IMG/VR virus record: IMGVR_UViG_3300030380_005507
Span: 1 to 22,062 of that record
Length of the DNA stretch: 22,062 nucleotides
Strand: one strand, 5' to 3'
From: a virus
The notes under the pieces were generated by a model, which worked only from the letters and a program-made list of their open reading frames with translations, searched no databases and was not told the origin of the DNA. The translations under genes were made by a program, and so were the position numbers. Within the stretch, counting starts at the first letter, position 1. Each line of letters opens with the position of its first letter. Shown here piece after piece: positions 8,209-17,753 of the stretch.

Positions 8209-8387
8209 TGGATGATGTCGGGTTAGCCAATCGCGTGCGTTCTATCATGCGCGAAAGAGAAAAGCTGATTAATGAAATGCTTATGTCGGGTGCACTCCGT
8301 GACATGGAGCAGTATAAAGTTGCAATCGGAGAGCTGACCGCGTTAGCATTGATCGAAGAAACCATAAAGCAATTTTTTAAGGAGTGA
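8208..8387 (+). CDS. Small coiled-coil protein between portal and co-chaperonin
   Basis: The ATG overlaps the preceding stop by one base and opens 59 codons. The predicted protein is almost entirely helical, with V-R-S-I-M-R-E-R-E-K-L-I-N-E-M-L, a middle M-E-Q-Y-K-V-A-I-G-E-L and a final E-E-T-I-K-Q-F-F-K-E. Heptad-like spacing of Leu, Ile and Met suggests a coiled coil. I recall similar short helical proteins between portal and head genes in marine phages, without an assigned role. Full overlap coupling on both sides supports it as a real gene. Confidence 0.7.
   Translation: MDDVGLANRVRSIMREREKLINEMLMSGALRDMEQYKVAIGELTALALIEETIKQFFKE
8379..8384 (+). promoter_or_regulatory. Ribosome binding site of the co-chaperonin gene
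   Basis: AAGGAG lies five bases before ATG 8390 and inside the last codons of the preceding gene. It decides the start against the in-frame GTG at 8384, which overlaps the site itself. Confidence 0.6.
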
Positions 8388-8389
8388 AC

Positions 8390-8800
8390 ATGCTGGCAGA
8401 TAAGGCTTATGTCGAATCCGACAAGCTGGTGCTAGATCCAAGTCTACTAGACAAATCTGCAATAGAGCGCATGCCCGACCCTTCCGGGTGGCGTATGTTG
8501 GTGCTTCCGTATTTTGGTCAACCAAAAAGCAAAGGGGGCATACACCTGACTAAAGCCACGCTGGACCGAGAGAGCCTAGCGACGGTGGTGGCTTATGTTG
8601 TAAAAATGGGCCCCCTGTGTTTCAACGACAAAGAAAAATATGGACCCGAGCCCTGGTGCGCAGAAAAGCAATGGGTGCTTATTGGCCGCTATTCGGGATC
8701 TCGGTTTAGGCTTGAAGACGGCGCAGAAGTTCGCATTATCAATGACGATGAAGTTATTGGAACCATCCTTAACCCAGATGACATAGTGAGTCTCATATGA
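8390..8800 (+). CDS. GroES-like co-chaperonin
   Basis: The 136-residue protein shows the GroES pattern. After a ~32-residue lead come G-W-R-M-L-V-L-P-Y-F-G, a mobile-loop-like segment PKSKGGIHLTKA (45-56), a strand with A-T-V-V-A-Y-V-V-K-M-G-P, and later W-V-L-I-G-R-Y-S-G-S-R-F and V-I-G-T-I-L-N-P-D-D. The loop GGIHLT corresponds to GroES GGIVLT, whose I-V-L tripeptide docks GroEL, with His in the middle position. It probably directs host GroEL to fold the capsid protein, as T4 gp31 does. I chose ATG 8390 because AAGGAG (8379-8384) is spaced for it; a GTG at 8384 is in frame but overlaps that site. It sits directly upstream of the scaffold. Confidence 0.78.
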   Translation: MLADKAYVESDKLVLDPSLLDKSAIERMPDPSGWRMLVLPYFGQPKSKGGIHLTKATLDRESLATVVAYVVKMGPLCFNDKEKYGPEPWCAEKQWVLIGRYSGSRFRLEDGAEVRIINDDEVIGTILNPDDIVSLI

Positions 8801-10812: not shown

Positions 10813-11730
10813 ATGGCGATTTCTAGAGCGCAACTAGCGAAAGAACTCGAACCAGGACTCAACGCCTTGTTCGGGCTTTCATACGATCAATACACCAATG
10901 AGTATGAGGAAATCTTCGCTATCGAAGATAGTGAGAGAGCCTTTGAGGAAGAGGTGTTAATCAGCGGGTTTGGAAGTGCGCCTGTGAAGACGGAGGGAGC
11001 TGGTGTTGCATTTGACACGGCGACTGAAGGTTTCACTGCTCGTTATACGCACGATACGATTGCTTTGGCGTTCAGTCTTACCTCTGAAGCAATTGAGGAC
11101 AACCTGTACGACTCCCTGGGACGTCGTTATACGAAGGCGCTTGCGCATTCAATGGCGAACACCAAGGAAGTAAAGGGTGCAGACGTACTGAACAACGGCT
11201 TCAACAGTAGCTTCGCTATTGGCGATGGTCAGCCACTGTTCTCCACTGCGCATCCGCTCTCAGGTGGCGGCACATTAGCTAACCGTGCTGTCACTATGGC
11301 AGACCTCAATGAGACCTCCCTCGAGGACGCATTGATCGACATCAGCACCTTTACTGATGATCGCGGTCTTACCATTTCTGTGAGAGCCACTAAGCTGGTT
11401 GTCCCACCGCAGCTTGTGTTTGTTGCTGACCGTATTCTGAACTCTACCCTGAGATCAGGAACCGCGGACAACGACATCAACGCAATCCGCAACACCGGCG
11501 TGCTGCCTGGTGGCTACACGGTAAATCACTACCTCAGTGACCCTGATGCTTACTTCATTTTGACCTCGGTCACTGAAGCAGGCGAAGGTCTGAAGATGTT
11601 CCAGAGAACCGCTATGGAAACCTCAATGGAGCCTGACTTCAGCACTGATAACGTGCGTTATCGTGCGCGCGAGCGATATTCTTTCGGGGTGTCAGACCCC
11701 CGCGGGGCATATGGCTCACAAGGTGCGTAA
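10813..11730 (+). CDS. Major capsid protein (HK97 fold, Mu gpT-like)
   Basis: This 305-residue protein forms the icosahedral shell. Diagnostic segments are an early Y-D-Q-Y-T-N-E-Y-E-E-I-F, F-S-L-T-S-E-A-I-E-D-N-L-Y in the long helix region, the GDGQPLFSTAHPLSGGG block (about 138-154) characteristic of Mu gpT-like capsid proteins, and W-free C-terminal strands ending in V-R-Y-R-A-R-E-R-Y-S-F-G. The length is normal and there is no N-terminal delta domain, consistent with a separate scaffold gene upstream. An excellent GAGGAGG ribosome site precedes it and a strong terminator follows within 20 bases of the stop, as expected for the most highly expressed structural gene. Confidence 0.9.
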   Translation: MAISRAQLAKELEPGLNALFGLSYDQYTNEYEEIFAIEDSERAFEEEVLISGFGSAPVKTEGAGVAFDTATEGFTARYTHDTIALAFSLTSEAIEDNLYDSLGRRYTKALAHSMANTKEVKGADVLNNGFNSSFAIGDGQPLFSTAHPLSGGGTLANRAVTMADLNETSLEDALIDISTFTDDRGLTISVRATKLVVPPQLVFVADRILNSTLRSGTADNDINAIRNTGVLPGGYTVNHYLSDPDAYFILTSVTEAGEGLKMFQRTAMETSMEPDFSTDNVRYRARERYSFGVSDPRGAYGSQGA

Positions 11731-11847: not shown

Positions 11848-12558
11848 ATGACTACTCACTTTACTTCTGGCGTCACCAACGTCGGCGCTGGCAGCACCCT
11901 GGGCCGCGCAAAAATGCCGGCACCAGCTAAATACCACGTTTATCACAACGACTTCGACACCTATCTAGCGTCGGACTGGACAATCACCACCACCGAGGGT
12001 GGCTCGGGCAATGCCTCAGAGGCTCTCGGAGATGGGGACGGCGGCTTGTTAGTGATCACTAACGACGATGCCGACAACGACAACGATTTTCTGCAGCTGA
12101 CTAAAGAAGGCTTTAAGTACGAGGCCGGGAAGCAGCTGGCCTTTAACGCACGTTTTAAGACCTCAGACGCTGATGCCTCTGACGTGGTCATGGGATTACA
12201 GATCACAGACACCAGCCCGCTGGATGTCTCTGATGGGATCTTTTTCCTGCTGACCGATGGCTCTACCACACTCACTTTTATCGTGGAAAAGGACGGCACC
12301 CAAAGCACTCTGGATCTACCTGCTGCAATGGCCGATGATACCTTTATGACTGTTGGCTTCATGTGGGATCCAAGAGATCAGAAATTTCACGTCTATCAAA
12401 ACAACGCTGAAGTTGGCACGGTGGCGTCAACTAACGCGCCCGACGATGAGGAATTAACCGTGTCTTTCGGTATCCAGAACGGCGCAGCCGCTGCAAAGGT
12501 ACTGACGGTCGATTACATCACAGCGATGAAAGAGCGCACTGCCAACACTGAGCTCTAA
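11848..12558 (+). CDS. Beta-rich structural protein, lectin-like
   Basis: The 236-residue product is acidic and rich in Thr, Asp and Gly. Strands alternate regularly, such as Y-H-V-Y-H-N-D-F-D-T-Y, D-G-I-F-F-L-L-T-D-G, F-M-T-V-G-F-M-W-D and K-F-H-V-Y-Q-N-N-A-E-V. A D-G-G-L-L-V-I-T segment followed by long strands is reminiscent of concanavalin-like jelly rolls, suggesting a capsid surface or carbohydrate-binding protein. I recall similar proteins just after the capsid gene in marine phages, where they are annotated only as structural or hypothetical. It has a strong ribosome site and is the first gene after the terminator. Confidence 0.7.
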   Translation: MTTHFTSGVTNVGAGSTLGRAKMPAPAKYHVYHNDFDTYLASDWTITTTEGGSGNASEALGDGDGGLLVITNDDADNDNDFLQLTKEGFKYEAGKQLAFNARFKTSDADASDVVMGLQITDTSPLDVSDGIFFLLTDGSTTLTFIVEKDGTQSTLDLPAAMADDTFMTVGFMWDPRDQKFHVYQNNAEVGTVASTNAPDDEELTVSFGIQNGAAAAKVLTVDYITAMKERTANTEL

Positions 12559-12573
12559 TCAAGGGGGTCCAAA

Positions 12574-12978
12574 ATGGCAGACGCTGTCACATCTCAAACA
12601 ATTCAAGACGGTGAACGTAAAGCCGTCTTGAAATTTACCAACGCCAGTGATGGCACCGGCGAGTCCGCTGTCAAAAAGGTGGATGTATCTGCTTTGGAGA
12701 GCAACACTCGCGGAGAGGCTTGCACCGCTGTCACTATCAACAAGATCTGGTGGCAATGCACTGGCATGTCCGTAAAAATTGAGTTCGATGCGTCGAGCAA
12801 TGTTTTGGCTATTGGCTTGTCTGAGAACTCAAACGGTCACCATGATTACTCCAACTTTTCTGGCATCCCAAATAACGCGGGCTCTGGAAAGACCGGAGAC
12901 CTTGACTTCACGACCGTGGGCCACTCAAGTGGTGATAGTTATATGATCATTCTCGAATTGATCAAAAGCTATGGCTGA
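12574..12978 (+). CDS. Conserved phage structural-type protein
   Basis: This 134-residue protein begins MADAVTSQTIQDGERKAVLK and contains F-T-N-A-S-D-G-T-G-E-S-A-V-K-K-V-D-V, K-I-W-W-Q-C and N-N-A-G-S-G-K-T-G-D, finishing I-I-L-E-L-I-K-S-Y. I recall a widespread uncharacterised marine phage family with this pattern, always close to capsid and neck genes. Predicted structure is all beta. Likely a virion surface or neck protein, by context only. A GGGGG ribosome site precedes it. Its end overlaps the next gene by eight bases. Confidence 0.75.
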   Translation: MADAVTSQTIQDGERKAVLKFTNASDGTGESAVKKVDVSALESNTRGEACTAVTINKIWWQCTGMSVKIEFDASSNVLAIGLSENSNGHHDYSNFSGIPNNAGSGKTGDLDFTTVGHSSGDSYMIILELIKSYG

Positions 12979-13264
12979 TGTCAAAGATGTCAAACGCACC
13001 AAGGGGGGCTCGCTCGTTTATCGAGGCGAGCGCTTCCCTGGTTATAACAAGCAGGTACGCACACCTGGGGCAAACAAAAAGTTTAAGGTTCTCGCAAAAA
13101 AAGGGGACCAGGTAAAGATTGTGAGATATGGCGATCCCAACATGACGATCAAAAAAGATCAGCCTGGGCGCCGTAAGAATTTTCGAGCCCGTCACAACTG
13201 TGATGCGGTAGAAAAGAAAAAAGATGTTTTTGCTGCCAGCTACTGGTCTTGCAAGAATTGGTAG
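12971..13264 (+). CDS. Lys-rich DUF5754-like protein with paired cysteines
   Basis: The 97-residue product is strongly basic. Its C-terminal half carries a recognisable block: K-F-K-V-L-A-K-K-G-D-Q-V-K-I, Y-G-D-P-N-M-T-I-K-K-D, R-R-K-N-F-R-A-R-H-N-C-D (Cys77) and Y-W-S-C-K-N-W (Cys94). This is the pattern I recall as DUF5754, found in phages and some large viruses, with no established function. His75, Cys77 and Cys94 could bind metal. The family naming is from memory. High charge suggests nucleic-acid contact. It starts inside the previous gene, so the two are probably translated together. Confidence 0.75.
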   Translation: MADVKDVKRTKGGSLVYRGERFPGYNKQVRTPGANKKFKVLAKKGDQVKIVRYGDPNMTIKKDQPGRRKNFRARHNCDAVEKKKDVFAASYWSCKNW

Positions 13265-13285: not shown

Positions 13286-15010
13286 ATGAGCATGATGGAC
13301 AATTTTTACAGATTACTCAAGCCCATTGCGGATAACTATTCCAATCCGCGCACAGCAGCGGCAGGCATTATCGGTCTTTTTAATCCCGGCCTTGGTATGG
13401 CATTGAGATACGGGCCAGAGATAGTCTCCGTGTTGCAAGGGCCTTATCAAGCGGGCGGGGGCTCAGGACTAGGCGCTCGCGGTGGCTCATCCGGTGGCAT
13501 GAGCGGCATGGTTCCCTCAAGCCTCGCAGGAAACCCGGGCGGTGTAGGGGGAAAACACGGTTTACCTCTCAGCGATTTGACTCAGTATCTTCAACGAGGC
13601 CGTGCATTGGACGATTCAGACATAAAGGGAAATATTCCTACGATGAATAAAGGCGGAGAGGTGCAGTTGCTTAATCCAAACATGCCACCGGGTCCGCGGA
13701 ACCCATACCTTCCCACAAGAGTCGCGCCACCTACTGGCATGACGTATGGCAGCAACGATGACTTAATCAGAGCTGCTCCATCTCGCGGCGTGGGTAGCTT
13801 GGGTGACATACTGCAAATGCTTAATCAAGGCAGAGGCAGGGGGCGGAGAGGGAATCCGATAATACCGCCAGGAAAACGGCCGACACTTCTTCCGATGACT
13901 AGCACAGTAGATTCTGTTCAAGGGTTCATTCCGAAACCTTACAATCCGCCCGGGATGCAAGAAGGCGGAACTGTCAGGACAGGTCAATTTATCGACGCGA
14001 ACAACAACGGCATTGATGACCGCGATGAAATTGTGGATGAAAGAATTCCTGTTTATGCTGGTGGCACACCAGGGTTCTATGACGGCGGGTTTGGACAAGA
14101 TCGTGTGGGGATGCCTGTCGCCTCCGCTCCTCCTAGCACCCAAGAGTCTTTGTTTGGCCCAGACGCTTCTGCTGTAATGAAAGAAGCAATGCTTGAGTAT
14201 GGCGGCTCTCGCAGCCCTTATGAGGGTTTTGCAGAGTACTTCAGTCGACCTGTATACGATCGCTCCACACCTCAGGCACCGCCGGAATCTGCTCCTATGC
14301 CCGACCCTGTTCTCGGCGCCGACGATCCGAGAGCTAATCTTGATGATCGTATCGCGCAGCTGATGGACCCTGGTAGGCAAGGTCTGACCAGAGAGGAAGC
14401 TTTGGAGCAACAATTACGCTCCATCTCTAAGGGTTATGACATCAACAACGACGGCGTTGTGACAAACGCTGAGTTCCAAATGTCGATGAATCCAGACTTC
14501 ACTGGAGTAGAGTCACGGATTCAAGAGCTGATGGATAGCGGGATGACTCGCCTAGAAGCCTTAGCTAAGCAGAGCTACGGCATTCAGCAGGGCTACGATT
14601 TGAATAATGACGGCATGGTCACTAACGCGGAATATGCTGAATTTATGAGAAATCAGCCAGCGGCTGCTACCCCTGCCCCTGAGGCAGCTGCGGAAACAAT
14701 CGCAGCCACAAGTCCACAGCAAGCCTTCCTCAACACGCTCGGGACGGTTCAAGGGGCCACACAAGCAGCAGACGCATCTCCACCAGTGGCCGACAGCGTG
14801 CAGCAGATGATTGACGGCATTCGAGCGCAAGGAATACCGGGCATTTTCGGCGGAAACTTCGATCTGACGGCCCTGCAGCAGCAGATCGCAGACTATCTGG
14901 AGTCTATCGGATACCAGGCACCCGGGGCGACTGATCAGCAACAAACCGCTATGCCGGTGCCCGACCGCGCGGTTGTTGACCGAGTTCGCACTCCGGTGAT
15001 TATGAGGTAG
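13286..15010 (+). CDS. Large virion-type protein with three EF-hand loops
   Basis: At 574 residues this is the longest gene between capsid and tail modules. An N-terminal helical segment with a hydrophobic A-A-A-G-I-I-G-L-F-N-P-G-L-G-M-A is followed by a long Gly/Pro-rich, probably disordered region (about 52-230). Three canonical 12-residue calcium loops are visible: DANNNGIDDRDE (237-248), DINNDGVVTNAE (385-396) and DLNNDGMVTNAE (438-449). The second and third are each preceded by a repeat-like helix (R-I-A-Q-L-M-D-P-G; R-I-Q-E-L-M-D-S-G), so they form a duplicated module. The end is Ala/Gln-rich. Two M-x-x-G-G-x-V motifs occur at about 119 and 223. I do not recognise a function; an internal or ejected virion protein is one possibility. 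Confidence 0.75.
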   Translation: MSMMDNFYRLLKPIADNYSNPRTAAAGIIGLFNPGLGMALRYGPEIVSVLQGPYQAGGGSGLGARGGSSGGMSGMVPSSLAGNPGGVGGKHGLPLSDLTQYLQRGRALDDSDIKGNIPTMNKGGEVQLLNPNMPPGPRNPYLPTRVAPPTGMTYGSNDDLIRAAPSRGVGSLGDILQMLNQGRGRGRRGNPIIPPGKRPTLLPMTSTVDSVQGFIPKPYNPPGMQEGGTVRTGQFIDANNNGIDDRDEIVDERIPVYAGGTPGFYDGGFGQDRVGMPVASAPPSTQESLFGPDASAVMKEAMLEYGGSRSPYEGFAEYFSRPVYDRSTPQAPPESAPMPDPVLGADDPRANLDDRIAQLMDPGRQGLTREEALEQQLRSISKGYDINNDGVVTNAEFQMSMNPDFTGVESRIQELMDSGMTRLEALAKQSYGIQQGYDLNNDGMVTNAEYAEFMRNQPAAATPAPEAAAETIAATSPQQAFLNTLGTVQGATQAADASPPVADSVQQMIDGIRAQGIPGIFGGNFDLTALQQQIADYLESIGYQAPGATDQQQTAMPVPDRAVVDRVRTPVIMR

Positions 15011-15012
15011 TC

Positions 15013-15642
15013 ATGGCAAAGCGTAAGTTTGCTCCGGTTCCCAAAAATCGAAAAGGCACTCCGCTGAAATATCTAGAGGGATTGAGCGGGTCTGAGAAAA
15101 AAGCCAAAGAAGCTGAAATGAAGCGGACGGCCAAGAAAGCCAGGGAGGGTACGTTGACCAAAGCAGAAATGGACCGCATCTCAAAAGAGCGTGCAGCCAG
15201 AGGAATGAAGAAAGGTGGCTCAGCTAAGAAGGGCGGCGGTGGTACGCCGGCGTGCGTCAAGAAGCACGCGAAAAGCAGCGGCAAATCAGTTTCTACACTC
15301 AATAAGGTTTACAAGCGCGGTCTTGGCGCTTATTACAGTAGCGGCTCTCGTAACGTCCCCGCCAGTGCATGGGCCTGCGGAAGAGTCCGATCCTTTGCAA
15401 CTGGAAAGGGCGGTGCGCGTAAGGCAGACGCTGACCTTCTGAAAAAGAAAGCGGGAGGCAGCGTGGAGTTTGATGCAAAGAAATCTGACCTTAACAAGGA
15501 TGGCAAGATCAGTAAGTACGAGCGAAAGCGTGGCGAGGCGATCGCCCGCAATATGCGTAACGGTGGGATGGTAGAGCTCCAGGCTCGAGGCTGCGGCGCC
15601 ATGATGAATGCTAAGCGCAAGACCACCCGGGTTCCCAAATAA
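15013..15642 (+). CDS. Basic protein with DUF5824-like region and one EF-hand loop
   Basis: This 209-residue protein is very Lys/Arg-rich. The first part (about 15-60) has T-P-L-K-Y-L-E-G-L and a basic helix; the middle has V-Y-K-R-G-L-G-A-Y-Y-S-S-G-S-R and A-S-A-W-A-C-G-R-V-R-S-F, resembling the DUF5824-type proteins I recall in phages and large viruses (family call from memory). DLNKDGKISKYE at 159-170 is a perfect EF-hand loop. The C-terminus V-E-L-Q-A-R-G-C-G-A-M-M-N with a basic end recurs in small marine phage proteins I recall. It starts two bases after the 574-aa gene. The function is unknown. Confidence 0.75.
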   Translation: MAKRKFAPVPKNRKGTPLKYLEGLSGSEKKAKEAEMKRTAKKAREGTLTKAEMDRISKERAARGMKKGGSAKKGGGGTPACVKKHAKSSGKSVSTLNKVYKRGLGAYYSSGSRNVPASAWACGRVRSFATGKGGARKADADLLKKKAGGSVEFDAKKSDLNKDGKISKYERKRGEAIARNMRNGGMVELQARGCGAMMNAKRKTTRVPK

Positions 15643-15656
15643 CTGGAGACTGAATC

Positions 15657-16244
15657 GTGAAGAGAAAAGCTAAAGGTATGAAGGAAGGCGGTGCAACTGG
15701 ATCGATTCTAGAAAAAATGAACAAGCCTTTTTTCGAGGTTGATGAACTGCCCAAGGCTCAACGAGAGAAGGTCAAAAAATTATTGGGTAATGCGGTGGAT
15801 AAATCGTTTGAATCCCTTACTAAATCAGAAGTGGATAAGCTAATGAAAGAGCTAGGGCTAATGCCTCGCAAGGGCCCAGCTAAACCGCCTAGCAAATCAG
15901 ACATGAAGACATTGGAGGATCGGATGAAAAGGGCGAAGAAAAAAATGAAGGGCGGTGCCATGAAAACCAAGGGCATGAAGAAAGGCGGTGCCATGAAAAC
16001 CAAGGGCATGAAGAAAGGCGGCGCTATGAAGTCCAAAGGTTACGCTAAAGGCGGTGCCATGAAGACTAAGGGCATGGCCAAAGGCGGCATGATGAAAACT
16101 AAAGGCATGGCCAAGGGCGGTATGATGAAGTCCAAGGGCATGGCCAAGGGTGGCGCCATGAAAACCAAGGGCGGCAACAAGGGCGGCGTGAAGCGGAACA
16201 TGCGTCCACCGTCAAGTTCGAAGAGCGGCCTTTACGGGAGATAG
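15657..16244 (+). CDS. Lys/Gly-rich protein with a seven-fold 11-aa repeat tail
   Basis: The 195-residue product starts at a GTG after TGGAGA. Residues 1-98 form a helical, basic domain with K-E-G-G-A-T-G-S-I-L-E-K-M-N and Q-R-E-K-V-K-K-L-L. Then seven repeats of GGAMKTKGMKK type follow and the protein ends in an Arg/Ser-rich stub. The tail has almost no acidic residues, resembling histone H1-like or protamine-like tails, so DNA condensation or virion packing is a reasonable guess. The first two units are identical in DNA, so the array is changing in length. Nothing catalytic is seen. It could equally be a low-complexity structural linker. Confidence 0.8.
   Translation: MKRKAKGMKEGGATGSILEKMNKPFFEVDELPKAQREKVKKLLGNAVDKSFESLTKSEVDKLMKELGLMPRKGPAKPPSKSDMKTLEDRMKRAKKKMKGGAMKTKGMKKGGAMKTKGMKKGGAMKSKGYAKGGAMKTKGMAKGGMMKTKGMAKGGMMKSKGMAKGGAMKTKGGNKGGVKRNMRPPSSSKSGLYGR
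15951..16181 (+). repeat. Seven tandem 33-bp repeats
   Basis: Units begin at 15951, 15984, 16017, 16050, 16083, 16116 and 16149, all in frame and without spacers. Units 1 and 2 are identical across 33 bp; later units vary mostly at codons 3, 6 and 9-10 (Ala/Met, Thr/Ser, Met/Tyr, Lys/Ala). The exact period and the identical pair point to expansion by slippage or unequal recombination. Confidence 0.92.
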
Positions 16245-17057: not shown

Positions 17058-17753
17058 GTGGCCACGAGCGGAAGCAAGGACTTTGAGCTTGACGTTGCAG
17101 ATTACGTCGAAGAGGCGTTTGAGCGCTGCGGACTAGAGCTTAGGACCGGGTATGACCTCAAGACCGCTCAAAGGTCGCTGAACTTGATGCTGGCTGAGTG
17201 GGCTAATAGAGGACTCAATCAGTGGACGATTAAGGCCAAGACCATCGCGGCGGTGAAGGACACTATCACCTATGAGGTGGACTCCACTACGCCCACCAGC
17301 ATTATTGACGTGCTAGATGTGTTTGTCCGAGAAACCATATCTGGCACTACAACCGACGTGCCGCTGAGCAAACTGTCGAGAGCCGAGTATGCTCACATCT
17401 CCACCAAAACAACTACTGGCAAGCCCAATCAATACTTTGTTGACAAGCAGATTAGCCCCACTATCACAGTGTGGCCGGCGCCAGATAAGAACAGCACTTA
17501 CACCATCCATGTAAACGTGCTCGTGCGAATGGATGACGCAGATGTGGGGTCCGATACCCTTGAAATGCCATTTCGGTTTTACCCGTGCCTAGCAGCTGGT
17601 TTGGCATATTACATGGCACTTAAACGCGCGCCGGAGAAGGTGACCCTTCTGAAGCAGCTGTATGAGGAAGAGTTCGAGCGAGCACTGAGCCAGGACCAGA
17701 GCAGGGCTTCATTTAAGGTGGCGCCTGATCTTACTATTTACAGGATTGCCTGA
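17058..17753 (+). CDS. Head-tail adaptor, P22 gp4-like
   Basis: This 231-residue protein has the layout of P22 gp4-type connector adaptors, which attach below the portal after DNA packaging. It shows an N-terminal helix V-E-E-A-F-E-R-C-G, then L-N-L-M-L-A-E-W-A-N-R-G-L-N-Q-W-T (about 46-62), a beta section with V-W-P-A-P-D near 137-142, and F-R-F-Y-P-C-L-A-A-G-L-A-Y-Y-M-A (about 173-188) leading to the terminal charged helix. The W-A-N-R-G-L-x-x-W block is a good family mark. The start is GTG, with AAGGGTAAATAGCC before it. It opens the connector module and is followed by a second adaptor 320 bases downstream. Confidence 0.82.
   Translation: MATSGSKDFELDVADYVEEAFERCGLELRTGYDLKTAQRSLNLMLAEWANRGLNQWTIKAKTIAAVKDTITYEVDSTTPTSIIDVLDVFVRETISGTTTDVPLSKLSRAEYAHISTKTTTGKPNQYFVDKQISPTITVWPAPDKNSTYTIHVNVLVRMDDADVGSDTLEMPFRFYPCLAAGLAYYMALKRAPEKVTLLKQLYEEEFERALSQDQSRASFKVAPDLTIYRIA

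Follow-up and report, generated by a model that had tools for sequence, protein, structure and literature searches.

EF-hand-type loop modules in two adjacent genes of the structural block of an uncultivated phage

Two neighboring genes and their loops

The window, i.e. the whole stretch of DNA analyzed, is an entire IMG/VR virus record of 22,062 bases in which all assigned genes share one direction. The gene order is terminase large subunit, portal, a GroES-like gene, a Mu gpT-like major capsid protein, three further genes and gene A, followed 3' of A by gene B, a KGG-repeat protein, a phrog_3704 gene, a SU10-type adaptor and a large virion structural protein. Judged by portal and adaptor, the nearest isolates are the Pelagibacter phages HTVC023P and HTVC027P, phage 023Pt_psg01, the Roseobacter phages CRP-901/902 and the lake phage DSL-LC04, all below 60% identity. 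Apart from DSL-LC04 these are of seawater or marine-host origin, and a seawater origin of the window phage is read solely from the habitat of these isolates. The features of interest are as follows.

10813-11730, Mu gpT-like major capsid protein
11848-13264, three genes separating the capsid gene from gene A
13286-15010, + strand, gene A, 574 aa, Gly/Pro-rich and acidic, with loop 1 and two EFa modules
13994-14029, + strand, loop 1 (A 237-248, DANNNGIDDRDE), non-canonical, conserved as FIDxNxNG(I/V)DDRDE
14324-14488, + strand, EFa module 1 (about A 347-401), from alignments, with AlphaFold2-predicted helices at A 369-381 and A 394-398
14438-14473, + strand, loop 2 (A 385-396, DINNDGVVTNAE), full match to PROSITE PS00018, also matched by Pfam EF-hand
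14489-14653, + strand, EFa module 2 (about A 402-456), from alignments, with AlphaFold2-predicted helices at A 407-417, A 422-434 and A 447-455
14597-14632, + strand, loop 3 (A 438-449, DLNNDGMVTNAE), full match to PS00018, within the best Pfam EF-hand_1 stretch (A 437-456)
15013-15642, + strand, gene B, 209 aa, basic, with a DUF5824 region and an EFb module
15061-15435, + strand, DUF5824-like region of B (residues 17-141), from Pfam
15460-15567, + strand, EFb module (about B 150-185), loop plus YERxRGEAIA exit helix, from alignments and an AlphaFold2-predicted helix at 168-179
15487-15522, + strand, loop 4 (B 159-170, DLNKDGKISKYE), fitting PS00018 at all 12 loop positions
15657-16244, + strand, KGG Lys/Gly repeat protein, pI 10.6, found after B in most of the syntenic relatives; listed for context and not a calcium protein
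17058-17753, SU10-type adaptor

The products differ strongly in charge: A is acidic (pI 4.6, net -18), B is basic (pI 10.6, net +39) and the KGG protein carries a net +42. Speculatively, the opposite charges of A and of B and the KGG protein would fit mutual contacts or contacts with the packaged DNA. The KGG protein is built of KGGAMKTKGM-type repeats with 25% Lys, and its length differs among relatives. The GroES-like co-chaperonin gene (8384-8800) lies between the portal and capsid genes in related isolates as well. The gene at 16245-16931 matches phrog_3704 (E 4e-28), labelled 'ferredoxin', and its HTVC023P relative is annotated as PurM; both labels look doubtful for this gene family.

All four loops placed in A and B by the original prediction are present at those residues, although not all of them keep the Asp/Asn/Asp-Gly/Glu ligand pattern that it had assigned to them. 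Loop 1 has Asn at position 5 and Asp, which is not hydrophobic, at position 8, and this register rules it out as an EF-hand. It is nevertheless conserved among relatives, changing at its positions 2, 4 and 7 only. The FIDxNxNG(I/V)DDRDE pattern was also found in A-slot proteins (see below) that are free of EFa (L007, L107, L112, L114, L131 and L132), and in the window it gives a weak match to DUF7151. By its sequence it is a separate conserved motif, possibly a further calcium motif of its own kind. The sole departure of loop 4 from PS00018 is an Arg at residue 13, just past the loop.

Residue shuffles gave 0.007 loops of the PS00018 type per protein for A and 0.0007 for B, and 795 other open reading frames of the fetched phage loci (200,233 aa) contained 12, or 0.06 per 1000 aa, some of which look genuine. 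In the 783 residues of A and B three such loops were seen where about 0.05 were expected (Poisson P about 2e-5), so loops 2-4 are far above chance. The notion that they are Asp/Asn-rich stretches that merely happen to look like EF-hands could draw on loop 1, which is off the EF-hand register. For loops 2-4 a chance origin is refuted by the shuffles and the open reading frame background, and with ligands that stay invariant despite synonymous codon change and EFb in more than 300 viral stretches (both below) we regard chance or composition as an extremely improbable explanation.

Searches with EF-hand and dockerin profiles, proposed with the original prediction, gave a divided answer. As a whole protein A passes the Pfam EF-hand_1 cut-off (PF00036; 26.4 bits vs 25.4), and the segment A 334-470 alone reaches 30.8 bits, while B stays below the cut-off with EF-hand_5 (14.3 bits vs 25.9), and for dockerin type I (PF00404) both proteins stay below (A 14.0 and B 12.7 bits vs 22.9). 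In dockerin-like docking the modules would plug, when calcium is bound, into a cohesin-like beta-sandwich protein of the particle, and the weak Dockerin_1 matches and a dockerin-like segment ITPQDIMKMAVGLNEPDLQYDMNNDGRITSADAL in the A slot of L021 point that way. In its make-up EFb, a calcium loop plus one helix, is like one dockerin half. The paired 22-residue repeats of dockerins are absent, however, as the two EFa loops of A are 53 residues apart and the B loop is single-copy with a YERxRGEAIA exit helix, and no cohesin domain was found among the Pfam-scanned proteins of the window. Membership in dockerin type I was rejected, by the cut-off and by the lack of the two loop-helix repeats, and a docking role is very unlikely.

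Conservation and predicted structure of EFa and EFb

Loops 2 and 3 lie, as predicted originally, in a duplicated module: residues 371-396 and 424-449 share 65% identity at the protein level and 59% at the DNA level. The unit, which we call EFa, is a repeat of about 53 residues with the sequence RIxxLMxxGMTxxEAxxxQ, the loop D(I/L)NNDGxVTNAE and then an aromatic residue. Since the ligand codons of the two copies in the window differ mostly synonymously, the duplication is not recent. In 50 sequences with 26-87% identity to those of the window, D1, N3, N4, D5, G6, V8, T9 and E12 are invariant, an invariance that follows in part from the search pattern NNDGxVT(N/D), with D1 and E12 lying outside it. 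The same invariance was seen in 16/16 EFa loops from 12 contigs that were reached via B rather than via the loop. Codon usage at the ligands is mixed (D1, GAC 14 and GAT 29; E12, GAG 30 and GAA 13), and a comparison of the window with L003 over the two EFa modules gives 29 synonymous codon differences and 6 nonsynonymous ones, none of the latter within the loops.

The relation of EFa to known EF-hands extends beyond the loop. EF-hand_1 matches 25 of the 50 EFa members at E<=0.01, and the best matches of an EFa profile among PDB sequences were calsenilin, KChIP2 and sarcoplasmic calcium-binding protein (E 4e-5 to 2e-4). With a loop-free profile of the EFa helices every strong match still had the loop after the helices; helices kept without the loop were rejected as a class, with only nine loop-less matches, all weak (best E 0.009). 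AlphaFold2 on A 334-470 (50 sequences) predicted helix, helix, loop and helix for each module (in model numbering, H36-48, loop 52-63 and H61-65, then H89-101, loop 105-116 and H114-122), with a mean pLDDT of 54-83 over ten-residue blocks. Loss of the ligands in homologues together with loops that lack flanking helices had been named as evidence against calcium binding, and for EFa the opposite was found: the ligands are in every copy and helices are predicted on both sides of loops 2 and 3. Canonical EF-hands usually pair via a short strand between their loops. The EFa model has no loop strands and no strand pairing between the two loops.

The EFb module of B has the consensus KKSDL(N/D)KDGK(I/L)SxYERxRGEAIA. 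Across 45 distinct copies no change was seen at D1, D5, G6 or E12; position 3 is either N or D, and 44 of the copies have S at position 9. The search patterns account in part for the constancy of D1 and E12 but leave D5, G6 and position 3 unconstrained. The E12 codon is GAG in 29 and GAA in 16. B matches DUF5824 (PF19141; 37.0 bits vs a cut-off of 25) and phrog_28338 (E 1e-17). The DUF5824 match stops at residue 141, short of the calcium loop, and EFb has the look of a module appended at the C-terminus. The AlphaFold2 model of B is of low confidence around the loop (pLDDT 50-59) and only half of the expected helix pair appears in it, an exit helix at 168-179 being predicted and residues 147-158, where an entering helix would lie, being non-helical. 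Foldseek searches of the A and B models against PDB and viral models gave no EF-hand match and nothing significant, which is expected from low-confidence models and carries no weight as evidence of novelty.

The claim that both genes have the same ligand pattern holds for the generic EF-hand loop. Beyond it a profile comparison of EFa with EFb aligned only a 14-column loop region (probability 52%), so that A and B share this loop and not one demonstrable domain; a common origin of the two modules was considered and is unsupported outside the loop. Compared with the EF-hands of calmodulin, KChIP/calsenilin and sarcoplasmic calcium-binding protein, the 12-residue loop is the same (D1, N/D3, D5, G6, hydrophobic 8, S/T9, E12), and for EFa the likeness includes the predicted flanking helices and the Pfam score of A. 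EFa differs in being unpaired in the prediction and in the extra RIxxLMxxGMTxxEAxxxQ helix-turn before the entering helix, EFb in the missing entering helix, and both in sitting in phage structural-gene neighborhoods.

In L020:2443-3067, L026:5980-6472, L021:2775-3705, L022 and L023 two overlapping frames, divided at GTGGCAAAAAAAAGTAG, take the place of the single B gene. This site has an A8 run with a stop directly behind it (compare window:15013-15642 and L032:7769-8216), and the second frame could start at the GTG there or be reached by slippage. A similar split, with ATG and an A8 run, occurs in Prochlorococcus phage MED4-184.

Gene order and distribution of the modules

In the relatives the order capsid, three genes, A slot, B, KGG protein, phrog_3704 gene and adaptor is conserved. 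Wherever a syntenic locus has EFa and a visible downstream phrog_3704 gene, EFb adjoins (34/34 loci, 22 distinct contigs). The reverse fails, and EFb is often found without EFa. The loop of B is kept throughout the syntenic loci, a constancy partly built in because those loci were mostly found through EFb. The A slot, by contrast, holds widely differing proteins, from 232 to nearly 1000 aa (e.g. L015:3503-6001, L021:1330-3063 and L100:2371-4389), which makes it a hypervariable position amid conserved genes. Among 53 A-slot proteins, some of them redundant, 19 have EFa, 6 loop 1 only, 2 a dockerin-like loop and 26 none, and the EFa share is inflated since some of the loci were found via the loop itself. 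With 26 of the 53 loop-less, calcium binding by A would be dispensable in the family.

EFa was found in 70 viral contigs and EFb in 317 confirmed viral-contig stretches, the best 80 of which were kept. A search with EFb in the genomes of 84,980 species gave one match, in a Maricaulis MAG; relatives of the window's adaptor and neighboring genes lie on the same contig, which with these phage-like head genes is probably phage DNA. EFb lies at the C-terminus of DUF5824 proteins or behind DUF5872-type N-termini, DUF5872 (PF19197) being matched by many of the EFb proteins that occupy the slot of B. It also occurs in gp39 of Roseobacter phage CRP-738, between portal and coat protein, and in other architectures (a 367-aa protein on a 76-kb contig, L030; L129 and L147, upstream of terminase; L155). 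Beyond this phage type EFa was found in L048, after an amidase/head-closure-like gene, in a 970-aa protein of L087 and in a 1024-aa protein of L080, flanked by a virion structural protein (phrog_3287) and a DNA-ejection-like protein (phrog_4287). Neither the whole of A nor its two-module region had a match in the annotated phage collection.

Some further loops were seen in these loci. In Pelagibacter phage HTVC023P, gp53 (L160:14144-14509), directly 5' of the adaptor, has an EF-hand-like DKNKDGKISGED near its start, with an EF-hand_5 match (E 5e-4) below the cut-off, and in the stretch examined no convincing such loop was found in HTVC027P and 023Pt_psg01 (seawater) or DSL-LC04 (lake). Proteins of about 800 aa upstream of an EFa gene in L039:1-2478, L048:3-2372 and L060:3-2477 carry further loops, e.g. 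DLDGDGLLSSSD, and belong to another phage type.

The setting of the L080 protein bears on a possible role in uncoating or ejection, in which internal or ejected proteins of the A type lose Ca2+ in the host cytoplasm and are thereby freed from packaged DNA or from B. Consistent with this, some A-slot proteins without EFa, two of those scanned, are long and helical with weak apolipoprotein matches. On the other hand, A itself matches no ejection family, that A or B enters the host is only hypothetical and half of the A-slot proteins are without the loop, and we consider such a switch unlikely.

Probable calcium binding and a possible role in the virion

Taken together, our results show that loops 2-4 are real, conserved and under purifying selection in phage structural-gene neighborhoods. 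We infer that the EFa and EFb loops bind calcium, which the sequences support well, and that A and B are part of the virion particle. Each loop would take one Ca2+ via positions 1, 3, 5, 7 (backbone), 9 and 12, and the bound ion would bring order to the mini-domain and the exit helix. The ligands of EFa include three acidic residues (D1, D5, E12) besides Asn and Thr, and those of EFb three or four, which by acid-pair reasoning suggests a moderate affinity. At the sub-micromolar Ca2+ of the cytoplasm most sites of this kind would be unoccupied, and at the millimolar Ca2+ of seawater they would be full.

Free Ca2+ is low in the cytoplasm of the host, which is the place of virion assembly. This makes calcium-dependent assembly, one of the roles first proposed for the loops, unlikely, and sites that are empty inside and full outside would likewise speak against it and for a lock that closes after lysis or a site that is emptied on delivery into the host. 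Calcium may act on stability or disassembly in seawater, or on uncoating. The reading we prefer, with a probability of about one half, is that EFa and EFb are Ca2+-binding, stabilizing modules of virion-associated proteins. A and B would belong to the head-to-neck gene block and bear two differing phage EF-hand-type modules, whose sites would be largely empty during assembly in the low-calcium cytoplasm. Upon lysis into Ca2+-rich water the sites would fill and lock the flexible, oppositely charged A (acidic) and B (strongly basic) into their final fold.

A serious rival is a constitutive folding role without switching, in which Ca2+, or Mg2+ in the cell, folds the mini-domain and the sites are generic staples in flexible virion proteins. 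All the ligand conservation of EFa and EFb would fit this, as would the location of the modules in Gly/Pro-rich or low-confidence proteins, the occurrence of EFb in proteins of unrelated architecture and the DKNKDGKISGED loop of HTVC023P gp53 beside the adaptor. The three acidic ligands and Thr9 of EFa, however, suggest a site of moderate affinity that should respond to the change from cytoplasm to water, and we hold the constitutive role to be possible, at a tentative level. A wider proposal is that EFa, EFb and FIDxNxNG(I/V)DDRDE form a portable, phage-specific toolkit that phages share in unrelated head, neck and ejection proteins, reading the Ca2+ step from cytoplasm to outside water as a signal by being empty in assembly, locked after lysis and emptied on the next delivery; this we find doubtful.

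The EF-hand loop is an old and known motif. Phage endolysin CHAP domains have EF-hand-like calcium sites, so phage-encoded loops of this type are found there too, but in lysis enzymes, and A and B match no enzymatic domain. Many phages depend on divalent ions for particle stability or infection. The virions of Geobacillus phage TP-84 are held by divalent ions and fall apart in EDTA, and a screen of its structural proteins for the EF-hand signature by the authors found none (PMC5889276), so that TP-84 resembles our case in the idea of a calcium-stabilized virion and differs in the absence of the signature. Among the papers found, this was the only one to look for the signature in a chelator-sensitive phage. 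In the literature searched there was no paper joining EF-hand with marine phage and no mention of DUF5824, and the paper on HTVC023P-type pelagiphages does not mention calcium. An 'EF-hand' protein in a paper on a Methanosarcina virus proved to be a host protein. What appears to be new are two phage modules set in proteins of the structural region whose architectures are unrelated, and the literature searched contained no paper on them.

Our analysis thus describes two compact EF-hand-type modules that a group of uncultivated phages conserves in its structural block and that also turn up in unrelated phage proteins, some of them from isolates. Through this conservation, and the recurrence in isolates, a possible role of calcium in virion maturation or uncoating becomes directly testable with chelators and point mutants.
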